From the NCBI GenBank assembly GCA_021740175.1, contig JAIPAH010000005.1, positions 1 to 47,484 on the forward strand: DNA of 47,484 bases. Direction: 5' to 3'. Within the stretch, counting starts at the first letter, position 1, and the number at the start of each line of letters is the position of its first letter. Position numbers and translations under genes: made by a program. Origin of the DNA: Bacteroidales bacterium (lineage in GTDB: Bacteria; Bacteroidota; Bacteroidia; Bacteroidales; JAIPAH01). This document shows positions 670-23,932 of the stretch, one piece after another. The notes below the pieces were generated by a model. The model was not told the DNA's origin and did no database searches. It saw only the letters and a program-made list of their open reading frames with translations.

Positions 670-1269
670 ATGAAATATTTATTGATATCCATAGCAATCT
701 TTTGTATGGCTTTCACCGTGCAAAGCCAGTCGCCCCACTTTATCTTATCGGAATTTTTTGCTTACCAGGAGGATAATGTAGTGAAACTGCAATGGAGCAT
801 CAAAGAAGGAAATACCTGTAATGGAATCGACATAGAGCGGGCAGGAAAAGAAAAAAAATTCGAAAAGATCGGTCGAATCAGCGGAGTCTGCGGTGCTCCC
901 GATCAGAGTGTCACCTACCGTTATGTGGATAGCCTGCCCTTAAAAAACCAGGTAAATCATTATCGCCTGGAGCTGGGAACGCAGGGCTACTCTTCTCCCG
1001 TGCAGGTAGAAACCCGGTTTTATAACAGTAAATCATATGTCGTAAAAAGGAACCCTTCATCGTCAAACATTTCCATACTGTTTAAAAACGAAGAAAACAT
1101 TCATTATACTTTTAAGATTTTTGATACACAGGGGAACCTGGTCAGGGAAATCACTACCCGGAGCGACCGGCTGGATATGCCGGTTCGTAAGCTTTCAACG
1201 GGGATATATATTTTCCGGGCTGTCTCGGCCGGCGGTTCCAAATTCAAAGGTAAATTCGCAGTTTTGTAA
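670..1269 (+). CDS. Secreted protein with C-terminal T9SS (type A) sorting domain
   Basis: I take the start at MKYLLISIAIF (670), not the track's 640, because a signal peptide begins there (hydrophobic core, then a cleavage-like AFTVQSQS). The mature part is about 180 residues. The last 70 or so follow the Por-secretion/T9SS type A tail: an FKIFDTQGNLV strand, a spaced LSTGIYIFRA strand and a final basic strand KFKGKFAVL. Family knowledge: such tails direct proteins through the outer membrane by the type IX system in Bacteroidota. The middle part (about residues 20-115, with WSIKEGNTCNGIDIER) resembles a small beta-sandwich of unknown function. There is no operon partner, but the phosphodiesterase starts 14 nt downstream. 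Confidence 0.75.
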   Translation: MKYLLISIAIFCMAFTVQSQSPHFILSEFFAYQEDNVVKLQWSIKEGNTCNGIDIERAGKEKKFEKIGRISGVCGAPDQSVTYRYVDSLPLKNQVNHYRLELGTQGYSSPVQVETRFYNSKSYVVKRNPSSSNISILFKNEENIHYTFKIFDTQGNLVREITTRSDRLDMPVRKLSTGIYIFRAVSAGGSKFKGKFAVL

Positions 1270-1283
1270 GAAATGAATTGCTC

Positions 1284-1784
1284 ATGAAGAAAATTGGATT
1301 GCTCTCCGATACCCATGGATTTTTACATCCCGGTATTATGGAATTTTTTGAGCACGCTGATGAGATTTGGCATGCCGGAGATATCGGCGATATGCAGATT
1401 ATAAGCAAGCTTGAGAGTATTGCTCCCGTAAAAGGCGTGTACGGTAATATCGACCGCACGGAAATACGCCATCGGTTCCCTGAAGACAATATTTTTTGGG
1501 TGGAAGGAGCTAAGATTTATATGAGACATATTGGAGGCTATCCGGGAAAATATAAACCCGAAGCCAAGAAACTTATTGATTCCGAAAAGCCCCATTTATT
1601 CATATCCGGGCACTCCCACATTTTAAAGGTTATGAATGATAAAAAACGCGGCATGCTCCACATGAATCCCGGAGCTGCAGGTAAATCGGGATTTCATAAA
1701 AAAATTACCGCCCTGAGATTTGAAATTAACTATGGCCGCTTCGAAAACCTGGAAGTTTTTGAAGCGTCCCGGAAAAGCAATTGA
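1284..1784 (+). CDS. YfcE/MJ0936-family metallophosphoesterase
   Basis: The product has 166 residues, normal for the small calcineurin-like phosphodiesterases of the YfcE/MJ0936 group. Metal-binding motifs are present in order: SDTHG near the N-terminus (D-x-H), HAGDIGD (GD), GNID (the GNxD form of GNHD), and SGHSH near residue 110 with the final metal histidines. Family members hydrolyse phosphodiesters with Mn or similar metals, but the natural substrate is usually unknown. The track start at 1278 is a TTG; the in-frame ATG at 1284 (MKKIGLLSDTHG) is preferred. It follows the T9SS protein by 14 nt and may be co-transcribed. Its stop directly abuts the stop of the convergent DUF4293 gene, with no bases between. 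Confidence 0.88.
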   Translation: MKKIGLLSDTHGFLHPGIMEFFEHADEIWHAGDIGDMQIISKLESIAPVKGVYGNIDRTEIRHRFPEDNIFWVEGAKIYMRHIGGYPGKYKPEAKKLIDSEKPHLFISGHSHILKVMNDKKRGMLHMNPGAAGKSGFHKKITALRFEINYGRFENLEVFEASRKSN

Positions 1785-2270
1785 TTATCTTAACCGATCC
1801 ACCGATCTTACCATTTTTTCATCTTTTCGTATGAATCGATTGGCCAGAATAAGAAACACCAAAGATATCAACGGCAAATAAATGCCGATGTCCTGGTAGT
1901 TGGCCATTGTATCTGTCACTTTTTCGATTTGGTCGATATAGAAAAACAGGATACCCATCACCATAATTATATTGAGAAATATGCCGATTTGGGTTAATTT
2001 CATTTGCAGAGGACGCTTTTTGTATAAAAATACAGTAGTAATGGAAATAACGGCTATTGCTGCTACAAAAACCAGTAGCGGAAGGTTGAACCAAAAGGAA
2101 AAGGGATTGGGTCCTACCTCGTTGGAGACCTCAAAAATGGTAAAAATCATATATTTCGTATTGGTTTCGGCGGCAGCAGCGTCCGTGAAAACAGCAATAG
2201 GGAAAAAGGCCATTAAAATAATGGCGATTCCTGATAAAAATAAGAAAATCGTTTGAACTCGTTGTATCAT
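1785..2270 (-). CDS. DUF4293 integral membrane protein
   Basis: The product begins MIQRVQTIFLFLSGIAII, the characteristic opening of the Bacteroidota DUF4293 family. I therefore choose this ATG at 2270 over the track's 2297. About 161 residues contain four hydrophobic helices: residues 8-28, about 58-80, 88-108 and 125-145. A small extracytoplasmic loop lies between helices 1 and 2, and the C-terminus is basic (FIRKDEKMVRSVDRLR). The family's function is unknown. It stands divergently upstream of rho, a neighbour often seen in Bacteroidota, although joint regulation cannot be shown from this window. Confidence 0.82.
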   Translation of the reverse strand: MIQRVQTIFLFLSGIAIILMAFFPIAVFTDAAAAETNTKYMIFTIFEVSNEVGPNPFSFWFNLPLLVFVAAIAVISITTVFLYKKRPLQMKLTQIGIFLNIIMVMGILFFYIDQIEKVTDTMANYQDIGIYLPLISLVFLILANRFIRKDEKMVRSVDRLR

Positions 2271-5857: not shown

Positions 5858-6017
5858 GGTTTCTTTTTTTAGATAACCACAAAAATAAGAATACGCTGCA
5901 TTTCGTGGACTATGGCAGGAAATATTTAAGCATTTTTCGTCGGTCTAAAAACAATTTTTGCAAGCTACCTTGATTGCCTCACAGTTTATCCTGACATTTG
6001 CGAAAAAGCAAAATCCT

Positions 6018-6857
6018 ATGAAAATATCAACGGTCATAGCCGATACCTGGAAAATGGATGGTGGGGTATGTTTTGGTGTAGTGCCCAAAACTTTGTGGCG
6101 CAAGCATTATCCCGAAGCGGGAGATAACCTTGTCAATGTTGTCTCGCGTTGCTTGGTGGTTGAGACGGAAGAAAGAGTCTTTTTGGTTGATGCCGGTATG
6201 GGGCGAAAGCAAACGGCCAAATATTATGGCTACAAATACTTATCCCCGGAAGACGAGCTTCTCCAAAACCTTTCACGTTTGGGATATAAACCGGAAGACA
6301 TTACCGATGTTCTGCTTACTCATCTGCATGATGACCATGTGGGAGGAGCTTCCAGGCTTAACGAAAGCGGAGAGCCTGAGTTGCTATTTCCCAATGCCCG
6401 CTATTGGGTTAGTCTCAATCAATGGCAATGGGCCCGAAATCCCAATAAACGCGAGCAGGCTGCCTTCCTGGAAAAGAATCTGACTCCTTTGGCTGAATCG
6501 GGGCGCCTTTACCTTGTGGAAGAAGACAGGGAGCTGGCTGAGGGTTTCTTCGTGAAACATTTTTCCGGTCATACCAGCGGGATGCTTGTCCCCTATATTA
6601 ACTATAAAAACCGGTTTTTGGTATTTGTATCCGATTTAATTCCATTAACCGGCAACCTCCCGGTGGTTTATCTTGCCAGCGTGGATATACAGCCGCTGGT
6701 AGCTATGGAAGAGAAAGAAAAATTCCTTGAGGAAGCTGTGAAAAATGCTTATGTACTGGTTTTCGAGCATGATTACTACACCGAATGTGCCACATTAAAA
6801 AGAACAAACAAGGGGTATGCCTTGAATGAAACTTTTACTTTGCAAGAGTTAGGGTGA
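6018..6857 (+). CDS. MBL-fold metallo-hydrolase, lactonase-like
   Basis: The start is set at MKISTVIADTWKMDGGVCFG (6018), because the track's N-terminal extension has no family resemblance. The metallo-beta-lactamase metal site is HLHDDH at residues 102-107 (HxHxDH). A further metal histidine is likely in KHFSGHTSGM (near 190), and the last one in FEHDYY near 255. The 280-residue length and the order of motifs resemble the AHL-lactonase/AttM-like group, which hydrolyses ester or lactone bonds with a di-zinc centre. The real substrate is open; glyoxalase II-type activity is less likely. It is unclustered: mpl lies divergent and a repeat-rich gap follows. Confidence 0.8.
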   Translation: MKISTVIADTWKMDGGVCFGVVPKTLWRKHYPEAGDNLVNVVSRCLVVETEERVFLVDAGMGRKQTAKYYGYKYLSPEDELLQNLSRLGYKPEDITDVLLTHLHDDHVGGASRLNESGEPELLFPNARYWVSLNQWQWARNPNKREQAAFLEKNLTPLAESGRLYLVEEDRELAEGFFVKHFSGHTSGMLVPYINYKNRFLVFVSDLIPLTGNLPVVYLASVDIQPLVAMEEKEKFLEEAVKNAYVLVFEHDYYTECATLKRTNKGYALNETFTLQELG

Positions 6858-7012: not shown

Positions 7013-7180
7013 GCATCAGGAGTTCTGAAACTAATACTTACATATGGGTTTGGGCAGCCAGAGGCCCGCCCGTACCGAATCCCGAGCCTTCGGGATTCGG
7101 GCGGGCTGCAAGAATTCCGGGTCAAAACGAAGACGTTTTGACGAACCTCTCTAACGTTGATTGTACGGCCTAAACGTTAG
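7013..7180 (-). repeat. Dispersed structured repeat, copy A
   Basis: The reverse complement is nearly identical to 21980-22104. Both share, in order, a CTAACGT block, a block CAATCAACGTTAGA, the palindrome GTCAAAACGTCTTCGTTTTGAC, then CCGGAATTCTTGCAG, CCTCTGGCTGC and a block similar to CAGAACTC. Copy A holds about 45-50 extra bases (hairpin 7064-7106) between TTGCAG and CCTCTGG. Stems visible here: GTCAAAACG (7121-7129) with CGTTTTGAC (7134-7142), and CTAACGTT (7151-7158) with AACGTTAG (7173-7180). A further stem, CGAAGCG with CGCTTCG (7182-7188 and 7193-7199), lies just outside. Confidence 0.8.
7064..7106. repeat. Long GC-rich hairpin nested in repeat copy A
   Basis: GCCCGCCC (7064-7071) pairs with GGGCGGGC (7099-7106), and CGAATCCCGA (7076-7085) pairs with TCGGGATTCG (7090-7099). 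The block is absent from copy B at 22 kb, so it looks like an insertion of one palindromic unit inside another. Confidence 0.7.
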
Positions 7181-7248
7181 ACGAAGCGTCATCGCTTCGC
7201 CTTCTTTCATTTTTTAAGTTTACCCGATTTTTACAAGCGGGCCTCTGG

Positions 7249-7315
7249 CTTCTGAAAATGATTAACTTTGTACAAAGTTGTATTTTATGGAAACTGAAGG
7301 ATTCAAAATATCATT
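7249..7315 (+). repeat. 67-bp direct repeat, left copy (TA promoter plus first antitoxin codons)
   Basis: This differs at only one base from 12058-12124. It spans the promoter/operator and the first ten or so codons of the antitoxin gene at 7287. After it the two loci stay loosely similar (AAGTTATA in both, offset by three bases) and then diverge. Confidence 0.9.
7263..7279 (+). promoter_or_regulatory. Promoter overlapped by a perfect 16-bp palindrome (TA operator)
   Basis: AACTTTGTACAAAGTT at 7264-7279 is a perfect palindrome. TAACTTTG at 7263-7270 fits the Bacteroidota -7 element TAnnTTTG, so a protein bound to the palindrome would cover the promoter. The antitoxin ATG is 8 nt downstream. 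This fits the usual autorepression of type II toxin-antitoxin operons. The same palindrome recurs at 12073-12088. Confidence 0.65.
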
Positions 7316-7535
7316 AAGTTATAATCAAATACGCGAATTGGTACGCCAGTTACCAAAAGAGGAAAAGCTTCAACTCAGTAAGGAATTGGCTAAAGAAACT
7401 ATTGATATAAGACTAAGCCGATTGCTTAAGTCATTCAAAACGGATGAGCTCACTCAAGATACTATAGATAAAGAGGTAGAGAGAATACGAAAAGAAATCC
7501 ATGAAGGAAAAAGATATAGTCAGGATTATCATTGA
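7287..7535 (+). CDS. Probable type II antitoxin of a PIN-toxin system
   Basis: The 82-residue protein starts at METEGFKISLSYNQI; the track's 7278 is a TTG inside the operator palindrome. The N-terminal part has a short strand followed by LVRQLPKEEKLQLSKELAKE helices. The C-terminus, ELTQDTIDKEVERIRKEIHEGK, resembles the tail of small Bacteroidota antitoxins paired with PIN ribonucleases (ltmdeI..eVk..R). An operator palindrome lies just upstream. No intact toxin follows: 68 nt downstream there is only a chimeric PIN remnant, so the antitoxin appears orphaned. Assignment is by pattern and context, not by a recognised family name. Confidence 0.55.
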   Translation: METEGFKISLSYNQIRELVRQLPKEEKLQLSKELAKETIDIRLSRLLKSFKTDELTQDTIDKEVERIRKEIHEGKRYSQDYH

Positions 7536-7940: not shown

Positions 7941-8107
7941 TTACCTAAACAACTCCTTAATATCCCCGGCACTCATGTTCCGGAACGGGTCGTTGGAATT
8001 GATGAAGGTCTCGGCCAGTTTCGACTTTCGCTCCTGGAGCTTGTAAATCTTTTCTTCGATGCTTCCGCGGGAAATCAGGCGGTAGACAAAGACGTTTTTC
8101 TCCTGGC
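7941..8107 (-). pseudogene. 3'-terminal fragment of the SNF2 helicase gene
   Basis: The minus strand encodes QEKNVFVYRLISRGSIEEKI and on to AGDIKELFR plus stop. This is identical except for one residue (INSND against INAND) to the last 54 residues of the intact helicase at 12886-15822. The similarity stops abruptly at about 8104-8107 (CTCCTGGC), where a glycerate kinase sequence on the opposite strand begins. A few silent differences show the copy is not brand new. There is no start or promoter, so it is a dead duplicate and possibly a product of recombination with the functional copy 5 kb away. Confidence 0.9.
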
Positions 8108-8632
8108 TGACGGGGGCGAGGGCACGGTCGATGCACTGGTGGCTGCCGCCGGAGGCACAAAAACGAAAGTACACGTGCACGACCCGCTCATGCGGGAAAT
8201 AGAAGCCGAATATGGTATCATTCACAACGATACGGCAGTCATCGAAATGGCGGCGGCTTCGGGACTGGAGCTGCTTTCCCGTGAAGAGCGAAATCCTATA
8301 ATTACCACCACTTTTGGCACCGGCGAACTTATCAGGGAAGCTATCCAAAAGTGCTACTCCCGTATCATCGTCGGGGTGGGTGGCAGCTCTACCAACTCGG
8401 GAGCCGGTATGGCGGAAGCACTCGGAGCTAAACTTTACAATAAGGAGAGTGAGGAAATTAACAAAGGAGGGACTCGCTGGGCAAACTAGCCTCGATTGAT
8501 CTTACCGAAAAGCCCGTAAGGCTCGAAGAGTCCATGCACAACGCCGAAAGGCTGCTGATACAGGCGGCGGCCAGAAAGACCCGGAGCCTTATGATCGGGA
8601 AGAAGTTACCGAATAAGAAACCTAAAATATAG
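8103..8632 (+). pseudogene. Glycerate kinase remnant (start lost, frameshift, internal deletion)
   Basis: From 8103 the frame reads LADGGEGTVDALVAAAGGT, then AVIEMAAASGL, ERNPIITTTFGTGELI and IIVGVGGSSTNSGAGMAEAL. These are the core motifs of the GarK/GlxK-type glycerate kinase family, which phosphorylates glycerate with ATP. The first 70 or so residues are replaced by the SNF2 fragment. At about 8470 the frame shifts: SLGKLASIDL continues in the next frame. It then jumps directly to a C-terminal-like EESMHNAERLLIQAA, so the middle part, roughly 150 residues of a family normally about 370-380 long, is missing. The track's 8139-8489 ORF is only part of this remnant. Confidence 0.85.
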
Positions 8633-11075: not shown

Positions 11076-12074
11076 ATGCGAACATATCACGTGCTCCTAT
11101 TGATGACAGTTTTGCAATTCTATTTTGTTGAGGGTAAAGCAACGTCTTTTAAGTCCGAAGTTGAAATCATTATACCGGATTCATCCCAAAATGAGTTATA
11201 TATTTGGAAGCTTCGGTATTTTTCATCGAAAGCAGAAAAAATAGACACTACTTTAAAAAGAGAGGTTGAAGGAGTTTTCCACTACACTTTAAATCACAAA
11301 AACCCTGTACTGATTCGTATCCTTCCTGATACAGGATTTGCCAAAGGAACTCGCATGCTAATCAATCCAGAGAAATATTTTTATTATACCATGTGTCACA
11401 ATTTTTATAACAAAGGATTGGATTTGTTCCTGGAACCCGGAGAAAGTTTGGAAATCAGAGTGCCTGATGCCAGGGATTTTAGGTATTCAGCCCGTTTTTC
11501 CGGGAATGGGGCTTCAAAACAAAAGTTTCTCCGCCATTTCAGGGACGAGTTTAACCGTCTGGCATATAACGATGAAATCGGGCTGCAAACAACTTCCGCA
11601 AAGGACTTAAATAAAAAGAAATTGCTCAAGAAGACTAACAAAGCCAAAAAAAAGTTACTCGGAATGCTTGAAGCCAAACGCGAGGTGCTTACACCGACAG
11701 CGGCTAATTACCTGAAAAATGAAATCATCTTCAAAACCCTTAACCGGAGGATACTTTATTTAAATAACTTTTTCCCGGAGTTTGTGAAAAATAGTATTTA
11801 AAATCCCAAAAAAAAGTTTTACGACTCCTTATTTTATGTACCTGACAGTATCGGAAAAATATCTACACTAAGCCGTGAATATATGGAGTTTCTCGAGTAC
11901 AAAGTAACCCATCATATGAATAAGGAATCTCAAGAGTTTCACAATTATTATCCCCCTAATAAGAAAAAACTTCAAGCAGCTAAAGATCTTTTGAGTGGAA
12001 AAAGCAAGGAAATTTATATCAAGAATTTAATAAGCAATAACCAAGACCTTTCGACTACTTCTGAAAATGATTAA
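11076..12074 (+). pseudogene. TlpA-like thiol-disulfide protein, N-terminal half only, with in-frame stop
   Basis: A signal peptide (MRTYHVLLLMTVLQFYFVEG) is followed by a beta-rich domain and helices of the kind found ahead of the thioredoxin domain in Bacteroidota TlpA/AhpC-TSA lipoproteins and periplasmic proteins (FLEPGESLEI, then a K-rich helical part). The 241-residue ORF stops at a TAA at 11799-11801, but the same frame continues without another stop. It reads NPKKKFYDSLFYVPDSIGKI... and SREYMEFLEYKVTHH to 12074, where it runs into the 67-bp direct repeat and ends SEND. The thioredoxin domain with its CxxC is absent. The family call rests on the domain layout and is moderate. Confidence 0.55.
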
Positions 12075-12124
12075 CTTTGTACAAAGTTGTGTTTTATGGA
12101 AACTGAAGGATTCAAAATATCATT
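12058..12124 (+). repeat. 67-bp direct repeat, right copy with TA operator
   Basis: Same as 7249-7315 with one change. It contains the palindrome AACTTTGTACAAAGTT (12073-12088) and the -7-like TAACTTTG. The first antitoxin codons (METEGFKISL) follow it, but the frame then ends quickly (ATTGATAAG). The genuine antitoxin of the next pair starts at 12158, so this copy may supply the promoter/operator to vapBC. Confidence 0.9.
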
Positions 12125-12885: not shown

Positions 12886-15822
12886 CTACCGAAACAACTC
12901 CTTAATATCCCCGGCACTCATATTTCGGAACGGATCATTGGCATTGATGAAGGTCTCGGCCAGTTTCGACTTTCGCTCCTGGAGTTTGTAAATCTTTTCT
13001 TCGATGCTTCCGCGGGAAATCAGGCGGTAGACAAAGACGTTTTTCTCTTGGCCGATGCGGTGAGCGCGATTAAGGGCTTGTTGCTCGGCGGCCGGATTCC
13101 ACCACGGATCAAGGATAAATACATAGCCTGCAGCCGTGAGGTTCAAACCGGTTCCCCCGGCTTTTAGGGAAACAAGAAAAAATTTAACTGTTTCATCTTC
13201 CTGAAACTTATGAACTTCCTCCTGCCGGTTGCGGGTCTGGCCGGTGAGCATGGCAAACGGATACCCTTGTTGCCTGAGATAGCGCGAGATAAGCTTGAGA
13301 TGTTCGACAAATGAAGAAAAGAAAATAGCCTTGTTTCCCTCGGCACGTAGTGATTCAATCGTCCGGAGCACCTCGTTGAATTTGCCGGAATCGCCTTCAT
13401 ACTCTTCATCGGCCAGCACCGGGTGATTCGACATCTGGCGGAGCCGTAGAATAGCTTCCAGCACCTGCATCCGGTGTTCCTGCAAATCCTGGTCGAGCAG
13501 GTTGTCGATGAGGCTGTTGCGAATACCCGATTTATAGCGCTCGTAAGCCTCGTACTGTTCCTCGGTCATCTCGCAGTAGTACACCTGCTCGGACAACGGT
13601 GGCAACTCTTTGGCCACATCCGTCTTTTTGCGCCGTAACAAGAAAGGCCGGATAATCCGGTTAAGCTTATCCTCCTGGGCTTCATCCTTCTTCCTTTCGA
13701 TAGGGGTGACAAACTTCTCGATAAAATTGCTGTAATTCCCCAGTAAGCCCTCGTTCAAAAAATTCAACTGCGACCAGAGGTCGGTCAGGGAGTTTTCGAT
13801 AGGCGTTCCGGTAAGCACCATTCCATGTTCGGAAACCAGAGAGGTTATCGCTTTGTAGGTTTTCGACTCAGGGTTTTTCACATACTGACTTTCATCGAGA
13901 ATGATGTAGAAAAAACTAAACGCCTTCAATGCTTCACTATCAATTCGGGCTACACCATAACTGGTGAGTATGAGGTCGTATTCAGGAAATTTTTCTATCA
14001 AACCTTCCCGCTTTCCACGGAAAACCAATACCTTCAAGTGGGGGGCAAACTTAGCAATTTCGGCTTCCCAGTTGTGCAGCAGCGAGGTGGGCATGATCAC
14101 CAGGCTGGTTTGCGAATGTGACGTATCCTCTGTTTCCTTGTCAAACATGGAGAGTTGATTTTCGGTAGCCTTCGGTTTGGTGGGAGCATTATCGCCTTCT
14201 TCCTCAGATGCAGCTTTGAGTAACAATGCCAGGGCCTGTACGGTTTTTCCCAGTCCCATATCGTCGGCCAGGCAACCACCGAAGCCATGTTGATGCAGAT
14301 GGTACAACCATGCATAGCCTTCCTTTTGGTAAGGACGCAGTCGGGCTTTCAAACCCTCCGGCGGCTCGATGTCTTTTTCAATGCGGCGGGTATAAAGCTG
14401 TTCCAGGCTCTCCGAAATTGGCGACTCCTTTTCAACCCCGGCATCCTCAAGCAAGGTGTAATGGAATTTCCGAATCAGCAGATTTCCTTCCTCTCCTTCG
14501 CGGGCATAGGTAATCAAATCGGCATATTGTTCAAACCATTCATCGGGAATGATAAATGTCGATCCGTCGGGTAGTTTGTAAAACTTCTCTCCCTTTAACA
14601 GATGGTTTCTTAGATTAATAAACGGGATTTCGAATTTCCCGGCCTTAACCTTGGCATACACATCAAACCAGTCGTTGGTTTCGTCTCTAAGGGTAGTGTC
14701 GAACCGAACCGGCCCGATATGATATTTGGGCGCTTCGCTACTACGAATCAGGGTAAAACCGGCTTTTGAAAGTGCGGCGGAAAGACGGTTAATCCAGGTA
14801 ACCAACTTAATCCCGTCAGTATCTTCCTTATCCAGGAAAAAGTAAACCCCGTCCCGGGATTGCAATTCATGTTGTTTTAGCTTTTTTACGGCTTGTTGTT
14901 CGCTTTCATAATCGCGGATGATCTTATCATAATGTATACCCTTATCTTCATACAGCACAACCAGGTTTTTCTTATCATCCGATGGCAAAACCTTCTTTTG
15001 GAGGTAATCAAAACTCAACTCCAGGCTGATGCTGCCGCTGATATCTTTGGTAAGCGTCAGTTTCCATTTCGGTTCGGGGCGATGCTCCTGTACCTCAAAG
15101 CCTTCGGCAATGACATCATAATCGCGCACCACTTTTTTTACAAATCCTTTAAAGTATTGCTCTTCGAGGCGTTTGGGGACCAGTATGTAATCCTTTGAGA
15201 AAAAGGGTTTTAACTTCTTACCATCAAACTGACGGAATGTTACCAAGGTATCATTGATCACCACAGCACAAGGTTGAAGGGATAGAAAAATGTGTGAAAA
15301 CCCTTTCAATGTGTTGGAATGGCCATTGTATGAGTACTTCATAGAATAACGTATGCCCTCATCAGTGTATCGGAAGTGAAAAAGAGGCTCAGCAAAACCA
15401 TTCTGTACGTAAATTCTTTCAGTCAACTGCAGGTTCAAACCTTGTCTTTCCTTTAATAATACAGGAATTTTCGTCTCTTTCAGCCATTCCACAATATGGT
15501 AGACTTTTTTCTGAACATAGGGCCGGATGTAATTTTGGGCATAATCATCCGGCACCGAATCGTAGAATTGCTGAATCCCCTTGTTTTTGTATCGGTTGGT
15601 CCGGGCAAAGCGCCTGAGGATTTCCGTATCGCTGTATTCGCCGGTCAACCGAACCACTTTAGCTTCCAATTCCTCCCATTCATCACCATCAACATCCTGC
15701 GCGGTAAGGTTATCCTGAATCTTCCACGCTTCTATTTCGGGGTTATATTCAGCCAAAAACGGCTTGAAAATATACCCGAGCACTCTGTGATATTGTATGG
15801 CAATGATTAGCTGCTGAGTCAT
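12886..15822 (-). CDS. SNF2/RapA-type DEAD/DEAH helicase
   Basis: A 978-residue Swi2/Snf2 ATPase that moves along double-stranded DNA and remodels protein-DNA complexes. The first 480 or so residues are a family-specific region without recognised motifs. The motor follows: motif I LADDMGLGKT (about 515), motif II DESQ (FFYIILDESQYVKN, where DEAH/DEAQ is usual), motif III LTGTPIENS, and in the second lobe KAIFFSSF, LVSLKAGGTGLNLT and motif VI RAHRIGQ. The ATG at 15822 (MTQQLIIAIQYH) is preferred over the TTG at 15828. It stands alone. Its last 54 codons are duplicated at 7941-8107, in a dead copy. The substrate is not predictable; HepA-like transcription recycling or repair are the usual ideas. 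Confidence 0.92.
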   Translation of the reverse strand: MTQQLIIAIQYHRVLGYIFKPFLAEYNPEIEAWKIQDNLTAQDVDGDEWEELEAKVVRLTGEYSDTEILRRFARTNRYKNKGIQQFYDSVPDDYAQNYIRPYVQKKVYHIVEWLKETKIPVLLKERQGLNLQLTERIYVQNGFAEPLFHFRYTDEGIRYSMKYSYNGHSNTLKGFSHIFLSLQPCAVVINDTLVTFRQFDGKKLKPFFSKDYILVPKRLEEQYFKGFVKKVVRDYDVIAEGFEVQEHRPEPKWKLTLTKDISGSISLELSFDYLQKKVLPSDDKKNLVVLYEDKGIHYDKIIRDYESEQQAVKKLKQHELQSRDGVYFFLDKEDTDGIKLVTWINRLSAALSKAGFTLIRSSEAPKYHIGPVRFDTTLRDETNDWFDVYAKVKAGKFEIPFINLRNHLLKGEKFYKLPDGSTFIIPDEWFEQYADLITYAREGEEGNLLIRKFHYTLLEDAGVEKESPISESLEQLYTRRIEKDIEPPEGLKARLRPYQKEGYAWLYHLHQHGFGGCLADDMGLGKTVQALALLLKAASEEEGDNAPTKPKATENQLSMFDKETEDTSHSQTSLVIMPTSLLHNWEAEIAKFAPHLKVLVFRGKREGLIEKFPEYDLILTSYGVARIDSEALKAFSFFYIILDESQYVKNPESKTYKAITSLVSEHGMVLTGTPIENSLTDLWSQLNFLNEGLLGNYSNFIEKFVTPIERKKDEAQEDKLNRIIRPFLLRRKKTDVAKELPPLSEQVYYCEMTEEQYEAYERYKSGIRNSLIDNLLDQDLQEHRMQVLEAILRLRQMSNHPVLADEEYEGDSGKFNEVLRTIESLRAEGNKAIFFSSFVEHLKLISRYLRQQGYPFAMLTGQTRNRQEEVHKFQEDETVKFFLVSLKAGGTGLNLTAAGYVFILDPWWNPAAEQQALNRAHRIGQEKNVFVYRLISRGSIEEKIYKLQERKSKLAETFINANDPFRNMSAGDIKELFR

Positions 15823-20745: not shown

Positions 20746-21570
20746 ATGGATCTTAAGCTGACAAAACCGCTCGCTTTTTTTGATTTGGAAACCACCGGTA
20801 CGGATGTGGGGAAGGATAAAATCGTGGAGATAAGTATTCTGAAAGTATACCCTGATAATACCCAGGAGACTTATACCAAAAGAATTAACCCCGAAATAAC
20901 TATACCGGAAAAAACCATAGCTATTCACGGTATCACGAATGAAGATGTGAAAGACGCCCCAACTTTTCCGCAAGTAGCCGGTGAGATCAATCAATTCTTA
21001 AAAAACTGCGATCTTGCCGGATATAATTGCCTGAAATTCGATGTGCCGCTATTAGTGGAAGAATTTCTCAGGGCGGATATGGATTTTGACATTGATAACC
21101 GTCGGGTGATCGATATTCAGAATATTTTTCATAAAATGGAGCCGCGGACTTTGCATGCCGCCTATCGCTTTTATTGCGAGAAAGATTTGTCGAATGCCCA
21201 TAGTGCCGAAGCGGACACTATTGCTACTTACGAAATCCTTAAAGCCCAGCTGGAGCGCTATCATGAACAACCTTACCATGACAAAAAGGGCAATAAAACC
21301 TATCCCGTACAAAATGATACCAATACGCTGCATGAGTTCTCCCACTACCACAGGAGTGCTGATCTTGTAGGACAAATCATTTATGATGAAAACGGGGTAG
21401 AAATTTTCAATTTTGGTAAACATAAAGGCCGGGCGGTTCGGGATGTTTTCAAAAAGAATCCCGCTTATTATGATTGGATGATGAAGGCCGATTTTCCGCT
21501 CTATACCAAAAAATTAATCACCTCCATCAAACTCCGGGAATTTAACAAAGGGGAAAGCAAAATGAAGTAG
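20746..21570 (+). CDS. DnaQ-like 3'-5' exonuclease with ExoX-type C-terminal module
   Basis: 274 residues. The DEDDh exonuclease motifs are present: FFDLETTG (Asp13/Glu15), GYNCLKFDVPLL (third Asp) and SAEADT with the preceding His of NAHSAEAD (about residue 150, His plus Asp). The C-terminal 50 residues, FNFGKHKGRAVRDVFKKNPAYYDWMMKADF, match the small module fused to ExoX-like nucleases (FGKhkG...d..YL.W), thought to help hold nucleic acid. Such enzymes degrade single-stranded DNA 3'-5' in repair, or serve as proofreading subunits. The stand-alone position makes repair more likely than a polymerase epsilon role. Confidence 0.9.
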   Translation: MDLKLTKPLAFFDLETTGTDVGKDKIVEISILKVYPDNTQETYTKRINPEITIPEKTIAIHGITNEDVKDAPTFPQVAGEINQFLKNCDLAGYNCLKFDVPLLVEEFLRADMDFDIDNRRVIDIQNIFHKMEPRTLHAAYRFYCEKDLSNAHSAEADTIATYEILKAQLERYHEQPYHDKKGNKTYPVQNDTNTLHEFSHYHRSADLVGQIIYDENGVEIFNFGKHKGRAVRDVFKKNPAYYDWMMKADFPLYTKKLITSIKLREFNKGESKMK

Positions 21571-21670
21571 CTCTTTTGAATTTTCCGAGGTGTTCAAAAA
21601 ATCCGAACTCGTTCAGATGGCTGGTTTATTGATCAAGCTGCCGCGGGGCCATCCCAAAAGCTTTATAATA

Positions 21671-21792
21671 GGATATTCAGCAACTTTTACCCTTAATTTC
21701 CCTGAAGGGAAGTTGCTGAATATCATTGAGTTTCGATTTTTAATTGGACTTTACCAAATTACTTTAACGGTAAATAGTTACCTTTTTGGACG
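21671..21792 (+). repeat. Palindromic intergenic repeat, family 2, copy 1
   Basis: It begins GATATTCAG, contains ACCCTTAATTTCCCTGAAGG and returns as CTGAATATC, followed by a tail TTGAGTTTCGATTTTTAATT and ending near TTTTTGGACGTCC. The reverse complement of 23811-23932 gives the same order of blocks over about 120 bp. The track's 72-residue ORF across it is spurious. Confidence 0.75.
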
Positions 21793-21809
21793 TCCCCGTG
21801 GCAAATAGT

Positions 21810-21892
21810 CTTTGCGTTTGTAACGCCATTGCGGAGCTTAAGCATTATAAAACAAATTAAGCGACTTACACCAATGCGTCACAGACGCAAAG
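21810..21892. repeat. Imperfect long palindrome
   Basis: CTTTGCGTTTGTAACGC (21810-21826) and GCGTCACAGACGCAAAG (21876-21892) pair at 15 of 17 positions. GCTTAA (21836-21841) and TTAAGC (21857-21862) pair inside it. Downstream a GC-rich hairpin CGCGAAGCATTCGCG is visible around 21905-21920. There is no coding potential. Together with its neighbours it makes 21571-22141 a gene-free stretch full of folded elements. Confidence 0.6.
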
Positions 21893-21979
21893 AAGGGGCC
21901 GCACGCGAAGCATTCGCGCGCGAGCTGTACCTTTATTAAGGAAAAACATGAAATTACTCCTATCCATGTTTTCTCTAAT

Positions 21980-22104
21980 CTAACGTATAGGCCGTGCAAT
22001 CAACGTTAGAAAGGTTAGTCAAAACGTCTTCGTTTTGACCCGGAATTCTTGCAGCCTCTGGCTGCGACCCCCACATTCAAACATTAGTTCCAGAACTCAT
22101 GAGC
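21980..22104 (+). repeat. Dispersed structured repeat, copy B
   Basis: Near-identical to the reverse complement of 7013-7180 (CTAACGT, CAATCAACGTTAGA, then GTCAAAACGTCTTCGTTTTGAC and CCGGAATTCTTGCAGCC). It lacks the long GC-rich hairpin found in copy A. It ends with a block similar to CCAGAACTCATGAGC. It stands just downstream of the gdhA terminator. Confidence 0.8.
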
Positions 22105-22205: not shown

Positions 22206-23543
22206 TTATACTACGCCTTGCTCAAGCATTGCGTTGGCAACCTTGAGGAAGCCGGCAATATTCGCTCCTTTTACGTAGTCGATATGACCGTCTTCTTCAG
22301 TTCCATACTTTTGGCATTGGTTATGAATGTCCCGCATAATTTTCTGCAGGCGCTCATCTACCTCATCGCGTCCCCAATTCAATTTCATGGAATTTTGTGT
22401 CATTTCCAGTCCCGAAGTAGCGACGCCTCCGGCATTTACAGCTTTCCCGGGCCCAAAAAATACTTTGTTTTCATCAAATACTTCGATGGCCTCAGGGGTT
22501 GACGGCATATTCGCGCCTTCAGCAATACAAATGCAACCGTTGTTTACCAGCGTCTCAGCATCTTTTTCATTAAGCTCATTTTGAGTGGCACAAGGCATGG
22601 CCACATCTACCTTAGCTTCCCAGGGGTGTTTACCTTCATGAAACTGGGCATCGGGGAATTCGTAGGAGAAAGGTTTGACGATGTCCTGGTTGGAGGCTCG
22701 CAGTTCCAGCATATAATCTATCATTTCATCGTTGAGCCCGTCGGGGATATGAACATAACCATCAGGGCCGGAAAGCGTAACCACTTTACCTCCCAGTTGA
22801 TTAATTTTTTGAGCTGCACCCCATGCGACGTTACCAAAACCCGAAAGCGCTACGGTCTTACCTTCAAAGTTATCATCGCGGGTTCTCAGCATTTCCTGGG
22901 CAAAATATACCGTGCCAAACCCGGTAGCTTCAGGGCGAATGAGAGAACCGCCCCAGTTAAGCCCTTTGCCGGTCAGCACGCCCGTATTTTCGCGGGCCAG
23001 TTTTTTATACATTCCATAAAGGTAGCCGATTTCACGTCCGCCAACGCCGATATCACCTGCAGGCACGTCGGTTTCGGGGCCAATCATTTTCCAGAGCTCC
23101 AGCATGTAGGACTGGCAGAAGCGCATAATTTCGTCGTCCGATTTGCCTTTGGGGTTAAAGTCCGATCCGCCTTTACCTCCACCCATGGGCAAGGTGGTGA
23201 GGGCATTTTTGAAGATCTGTTCGAAACCCAGAAACTTGAGGATGCTGAGATTAACGCTGGGGTGAAATCTCAAACCGCCTTTATAAGGGCCAATGGCATT
23301 GTTAAACTGGATACGGTAACCAATGTTTACTTCCACTTTACCATTATCCGTTACCCAGGGTACTTTGAAGGTGAGCACGCGATCAGGTTCTATTAATCGC
23401 TCGACGATGTTTTTGCTCTCAAACTGTGGATTCTCGTTTAATACGTCTTCAAGTGTTTCCAACACTTCACGTACTGCTTGTAAATATTCTCCTTCACCCG
23501 GGTGCTTTTGCTCCAGGTTACTCATTACTTTTTCAATGTCCAT
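22206..23543 (-). CDS. gdhA: Glutamate dehydrogenase, NADP-type hexameric
   Basis: Converts 2-oxoglutarate and ammonium to glutamate with NADPH, or the reverse. 445 residues, the exact size of the bacterial small hexameric class. Diagnostic stretches: GYRIQFNNAIGPYKGGLRFH with the substrate lysine; PMGGGKGGSDFNPKGKSD with the catalytic Lys; DVPAGDIGVGGREIGYLYG; the nucleotide-binding TVALSGFGNVAWGAAQKI; and the C-terminal ARNAGGVA-like NAGGVATSGLEMTQNS. The glycine-rich loop GFGNVA followed by LSGPDG favours NADPH. It is monocistronic, with its own promoter (23619-23651) and a strong terminator, between two inverted copies of a palindromic repeat. Levels are probably set by nitrogen supply, but no operator is evident. 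Confidence 0.97.
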   Translation of the reverse strand: MDIEKVMSNLEQKHPGEGEYLQAVREVLETLEDVLNENPQFESKNIVERLIEPDRVLTFKVPWVTDNGKVEVNIGYRIQFNNAIGPYKGGLRFHPSVNLSILKFLGFEQIFKNALTTLPMGGGKGGSDFNPKGKSDDEIMRFCQSYMLELWKMIGPETDVPAGDIGVGGREIGYLYGMYKKLARENTGVLTGKGLNWGGSLIRPEATGFGTVYFAQEMLRTRDDNFEGKTVALSGFGNVAWGAAQKINQLGGKVVTLSGPDGYVHIPDGLNDEMIDYMLELRASNQDIVKPFSYEFPDAQFHEGKHPWEAKVDVAMPCATQNELNEKDAETLVNNGCICIAEGANMPSTPEAIEVFDENKVFFGPGKAVNAGGVATSGLEMTQNSMKLNWGRDEVDERLQKIMRDIHNQCQKYGTEEDGHIDYVKGANIAGFLKVANAMLEQGVV

Positions 23544-23810: not shown

Positions 23811-23932
23811 GTCCAAAAAAACACAAAACTTGATGCTAAAAGAACCGGAAACTCCATTCAAAAAACGAGATTCAATGATATTCAGGGCCTTCCCTTCAGG
23901 AAATTTAAGGGTAAAAAGTCACTGAATATCAT
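23811..23932 (-). repeat. Palindromic intergenic repeat, family 2, copy 2
   Basis: The reverse complement starts GATATTCAGTGACTTTTTAC, has CCCTTAAATTTCCTGAAGGG and CCCTGAATATCATTGA, then a diverged tail ending TTTTTTTGGACAGC. This is the same succession of blocks as in 21671-21792. It is oriented opposite to copy 1, with gdhA between. Confidence 0.75.

Follow-up and report, generated by a model that had tools for sequence, protein, structure and literature searches.

An intergenic repeat of Bacteroidales is most likely a mobile REP element of double-hairpin form

In E. coli, REP/BIME sequences and their TnpA-REP protein (subclass 2.2) combine dispersed intergenic palindromes, inverted doublets, and a bracketed RAYT gene, with each REP consisting of one hairpin with a GTAG foot. 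In Pseudomonas, REPIN doublets are the likely replicating unit, with the RAYT acting in trans (Bertels and Rainey 2011, PMC3116915). For RAYT subclass 2.6 (group 5), the main text of Quentin et al. 2018 (PMC6006769) gives the consensus motifs NH[LIV]H and YIH[QN]NP, a Bacteroidetes distribution, and REPs without the GT[AG]G tag, and calls these weaker REPs ‘atypical secondary structures’.

Here we analyzed two copies, A and B, of a repeat in a 47,484-nt stretch of Bacteroidales DNA (the window). The family has dispersed intergenic palindromes, inverted doublets, and a bracketed RAYT gene in common with the E. coli system, but is built from two hairpins with a GTT foot. It resembles REPINs in that doublets are the likely replicating unit and the RAYT would act in trans, whereas each half of the doublet is itself bipartite and copy number is in the tens. 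The likeness to subclass 2.6, as presented in the main text of PMC6006769, is closer: the associated RAYTs are ~180-190 aa, come from Bacteroidetes, carry NH[LIV]H/YIH[QN]NP-type motifs, and are flanked by genome-repeated secondary structures without GT[AG]G. However, the residue after YIH is wider here ([ENAQ]) than the printed [QN], and that main text gives no architecture, whereas we find a strong covarying double hairpin with an AAC foot and an AAGAAT linker. Our family thus fits subclass 2.6 / group 5, as assigned by motif, phylum, and tag absence rather than by a tree, and we think it very likely that A and B belong to a family of double-hairpin REPs whose cognate enzymes are Bacteroidetes RAYTs of this subclass. 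The main text of PMC6006769 mentions neither the double-hairpin plan nor the foot and linker signals nor the covariation, though our priority on these points is not certain.

A preliminary description of the window had presented A and B as inverted copies sharing several blocks, and this holds: positions 7104-7181 and 21979-22056 are 95% complementary over 78 nt, and a wider alignment adds more common blocks and a single large gap, which is the extra palindrome of A. The palindrome GTCAAAACG is likewise present in both copies (hairpin 2 in Table 1). Other details needed revision. Copy A does not end at 7180 but continues to ~7252 as an inverted doublet, and its second, GC-rich palindrome is real but measures 41 nt, not 43 bp, and lies between GCAGCCAGAGG and CTGC. 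No long ORF runs over either copy. Copy A lies between ORFs 5958-6857 and 7278-7535, copy B lies between ORFs 20746-21570 and 22206-23543, and both fold strongly as single-stranded DNA (z = -6.0 for A and -5.3 for B). Other repeats occur nearby. Direct repeats at 7249-7315 / 12058-12124 and 7942-8115 / 12887-13060 (99% and 94%) correspond to a duplicated gene start (METEGFKISL...), perhaps antitoxin-like, and copy A adjoins one of these two duplicates and not the other. On the side of copy B, positions 21644-21798, with an inverted partner at 23849-23916, form another dispersed, MITE-like repeat with a long hairpin (ATATTCAGCAACTTTTACCC...GAAGTTGCTGAATAT), a type with more than 20 matches in the sister-species genome introduced below.

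Table 1. Positions of repeat features in the window and of a RAYT locus with its modules in a relative (locus L169 of genome G003, in that locus's own coordinates)
Feature	Position	Strand	Evidence
Copy A module 1, two-hairpin REP with long-armed hairpin 1	7054..7149	+	Covariance model R1 match, 58.6 bits, E 2.0e-13
Copy A nested GC-rich hairpin CCCGCCCG...CGGGCGGG inside hairpin 1, 41 nt	7065..7105	+	Sequence; recurs at that position in other copies
Copy A conserved linker AAGAAT	7110..7115	+	Invariant in 26-copy alignment
Copy A hairpin 2, GTCAAAACG-AAGA-CGTTTTGAC	7121..7142	+	Covarying stem, DNA fold
Copy A AAC foot (other strand: GTT)	7144..7146	+	>90% conserved
Copy A doublet spacer, TCTAACGTT/AACGTTAGA palindrome extending into second foot	7147..7175	.	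Conserved among long copies
Copy A module 2, inverted	7173..7252	-	Covariance model R1 match 7173-7222, E 6.9e-6; sequence
Copy A module 2 foot GTTA	7176-7179	-	
Copy A module 2 hairpin 2	7180-7201	-	
Copy A module 2 hairpin 1 with own inserted arm	7216-7252	-	
Copy B whole repeat: spacer, module, and conserved outer flank	21979..22098	-	Genome search, A/B alignment
Copy B two-hairpin module	22011..22065	-	Covariance model R1 match, 75.9 bits; DNA fold
Copy B hairpin 1	22051-22065	-	
Copy B AAGAAT	22045-22050	-	
Copy B hairpin 2	22018-22039	-	
Copy B foot	22014-22016	-	
Type II REP copy beside B, GCTSGCG foot	21873..21925	-	Covariance model R2, 61.8 bits, E 3.3e-20; copy in model seed
G003 L169 module	1128-1183	-	
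G003 L169 RAYT gene	1195-1779	-	
G003 L169 module	1896-1950	+	

The repeat is far from limited to the two copies first reported. When the window's own genome (G000; 3.43 Mb, 239 contigs, 79.65% complete) was searched with copy A, 59 matching pieces were found, and GCAGCCNGAGGCTGCAAGAAT with at most two mismatches gave 45 matches compared to none for the reversed control; several of the mismatched matches are compensatory stem changes. Covariance model R1 has 76 matches in G000, including a few weak ones and a few opposite-strand overlapping duplicates, which we take as about 75 copies of what we call the type I module; since R1 was seeded with G000 copies, the match scores in this genome are partly by construction. 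Among 59 genomes searched, R1 also matched 63 times in G001, a sister species of the same genus, and 26, 6, 3, 2, and 1 times in five further genomes, the only others with any match. The Bacteroidales MAG Tobar18m-G3, a record matching G001, contains the exact pattern in 15 contig stretches.

The type I module comprises 55 nt: hairpin 1 (NNNGCC-NGA-GGCNNN), AAGAAT, 3-6 nt, hairpin 2, and the AAC foot. An alignment of 26 diverse copies gives 6 bp and an NGA loop for hairpin 1 and ~9-10 bp for hairpin 2; AAGAAT is invariant and the bases between it and hairpin 2 are variable. In this alignment, 97.6% of cells are paired, and both stems covary, with changes on both sides in 12 of 16 pairs. Cells with double changes number 49, compared to 10.8 +/- 2.6 in shuffles, only 4 cells have one-sided changes, and all slid controls fall far below the true register. 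Compensatory changes therefore preserve this module. The GT[AG]G (or CGTC) tag is missing at the hairpin foot, which instead reads GTT on the complementary strand.

Two covarying hairpins in an intergenic position would also suit a structured RNA or an mRNA 3´-end element, acting in stability or termination, spread by recombination, and selected as RNA. We regard this explanation as very improbable. Rfam gave no gathering matches in the window and only chance-level matches at copy A, and there was no tRNA match at A or B; thus, the possibility that the repeat exists in two copies only, both parts of a known RNA gene, is contradicted by the many copies and the lack of an Rfam family. In addition, the excess of two-sided over one-sided pair changes (49 vs 4) and the few G-U pairs in type I stems are as expected of DNA hairpins, and both the inverted doublets and the placement of modules around RAYT genes in relatives speak against an RNA.

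The genomic behavior of the modules points toward a REP element. Neighboring copies no more than 250 bp apart form 13 inverted pairs vs 2 direct pairs (p = 0.007), and the core falls within an ORF of at least 150 aa, as called by a simple scan and not a gene caller, at 3 of 26 loci, compared to 67% of random positions in those loci. Copy B and its neighbor repeats are missing from the orthologous intergenic region of G001 (flanks 87-89% identical), with no clean whole-REP empty site because the intergenic flanks of B have diverged; the region orthologous to copy A is rearranged in G001. Type I modules are thus dispersed between genes, often as inverted doublets, and their presence differs between sister species.

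Could the modules be moved by something other than a RAYT? A-type copies have conserved flanks extending past the module, such that units of ~200 nt seem to move or be copied together, and the spacer ends resemble TCTAAC/GTTAGA, as might be seen for a MITE-like remnant moved by a non-RAYT transposase, or for a folded recombination site such as attC. Yet core-only copies without A-type flanks occur, RAYT genes of other families have the module at their flanks, and the copies showed neither a shared terminal inverted repeat nor a target duplication, although the B-locus flanks are too diverged to judge duplications. Target duplications are not expected of HUH enzymes. The attC idea was rejected, given that core-only copies lack the TCTAAC/GTTAGA palindrome, which forms the spacer of the doublet. 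We therefore consider movement of this kind to be very improbable.

The link between modules and RAYT genes is clearest in relatives. In G003, a 99%-complete genome from another family of the order, each of two genes for 194-aa Y1 transposases has a two-hairpin module inverted at both ends (Table 1). Modules also adjoin RAYT genes in G052, G037, G073, G129, G030, and G215, and the G073 module again has AAGAAT as its linker. These RAYTs carry the HUH motif as SNHIHL or TNHLHM and the tyrosine motif YIH[ENAQ]NP, pass NF047646, NCBI's REP-associated tyrosine transposase equivalog model (the first protein scores 94.8 bits, with a cut-off of 80), and have E. coli TnpArep (4er8) as their best PDB match. 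Of 295 genomes from the order, 77 contain the clade according to a profile built from these proteins, usually with 1-4 matches per genome. Across 30 RAYT loci, 11-mers in inverted or direct orientation usually recur in both flanks, while the reversed control had none, and a generic, sequence-independent scan found double hairpins at a density of 3.34/kb within 400 bp of the RAYTs vs 0.39/kb beyond 700 bp, at 25 of the 30 loci. The R1 module co-occurs with the RAYT clade (5/7 vs 7/52, Fisher p = 0.003) among the 59 genomes, which include G000 and in which genomes not listed as clade-positive were taken as negative. In many R1-negative genomes, the repeats of the RAYTs have other sequences, such that the association is one of architecture and position more than of identical sequence. 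In G029, several broken RAYT copies are clustered (C8 144840-154935 and C1 26147-27174), which is unusual because the gene is normally single-copy.

The search for a RAYT or Y1 transposase suggested in the preliminary description thus succeeded in relatives, but no RAYT of the flanking-module clade was found in the 79.65%-complete G000 assembly. The type I cognate may lie in the missing 20%, may have been lost, or may never have been in the G000 lineage. The sole PF01797 match in G000 (C177, L031), which is IS200-like, was rejected as the partner because the abundant repeat on its flanks is a different one (GCCCCAACGGGGCGAAATC, TTTACCCCGTGAAATC). Two weaker Y1 genes, on C172 and C14, were also rejected: their YIQNNP motif and in-frame repeat insertion mark a different type of RAYT, and no module lies closer than ~1.7 kb. 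The C172 gene (L248 2292-2915, minus strand) is RAYT-like, and VETHGRAS and SSESR repeats form an in-frame insertion between its HUH and Y motifs, an arrangement described for RAYT subclass 2.4.

In G001, eight copies of a second two-hairpin family lie around the one RAYT of the clade (C1:14462-15010). We call this family type II; it has 35 copies in G000 and 51 in G001. Type II also covaries, as judged from ten sequences for which two of five measures were not beyond shuffles. Since one type II copy lies beside copy B (Table 1), the window holds two REP families of one plan.

The nested hairpin of copy A raises a separate question. Every long copy seen in G000 or G001 carries its extra arm at one position, between AGCCAGAGG and the closing half-stem (CTGC, CTGG, CTTA, or CTTG), and the arm varies in sequence and in length from 23 to about 43 nt. 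A shared position with varied sequences could mean that the long arm is not a separate inserted element but marks an old structural subtype of the REP, which was inherited or has spread through gene conversion. This explanation, which concerns the nested hairpin only and is compatible with a REP/RAYT origin of the whole repeat, seems to us unlikely on comparison of the orthologous pairs. One orthologous copy (G000 C230 / G001 L063, flanks 83-84% identical) lacks exactly the 41-nt hairpin in G001, in keeping with the earlier proposal of a palindrome inserted in a palindrome. A second pair (G000 C153 / G001 C12) apparently differs in the opposite direction, being short in G000 and long in G001, though its left side aligns poorly; a third (L012/L220) gave no clean alignment. 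With one pair 41 nt apart and a second apparently reversed, the arms come or go, or are converted, as a unit, and the comparison favors gain or loss of the hairpin 1 arm as such. The nested hairpin would then be a separate 41-nt insertion (or loss) that yields a long-armed variant. GC-rich hairpins of a similar kind also occur elsewhere in G000, outside the module.

Copy number, intergenic position, inverted doublets, orthologous presence/absence, and the RAYT flanking in relatives all support the mobile, non-coding REP/RAYT type of element first proposed, and a mobile REP of unusual double-hairpin form is the most likely identity of the repeat. Because the repeat lacks the usual GTAG tag and the 80%-complete assembly yielded no cognate RAYT, we infer mobilization in trans by analogy, from the biochemistry of TnpA-REP and IS200/IS605. 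In this model, the RAYT would act in trans on the single-stranded module, for example on the lagging-strand template, reading the folded hairpins together with the GTT/ATTCTT strand signals and cutting beside the foot. Modules or doublets would then be pasted or copied into other single-stranded intergenic DNA.

A more general idea, which we offer tentatively and with some doubt, is that group 5 RAYTs have bipartite REPs as a rule. The enzyme might recognize both hairpins and both strand signals together, perhaps one per dimer protomer, in contrast to GTAG REPs with their single hairpin, and other hairpins could land preferentially on the loop side of hairpin 1. At an orthologous copy, the 41-nt dimorphism represents a hairpin gained or lost within a hairpin, and the defined double-hairpin module, with conserved strand signals beside intact RAYT genes, provides a directly testable substrate.
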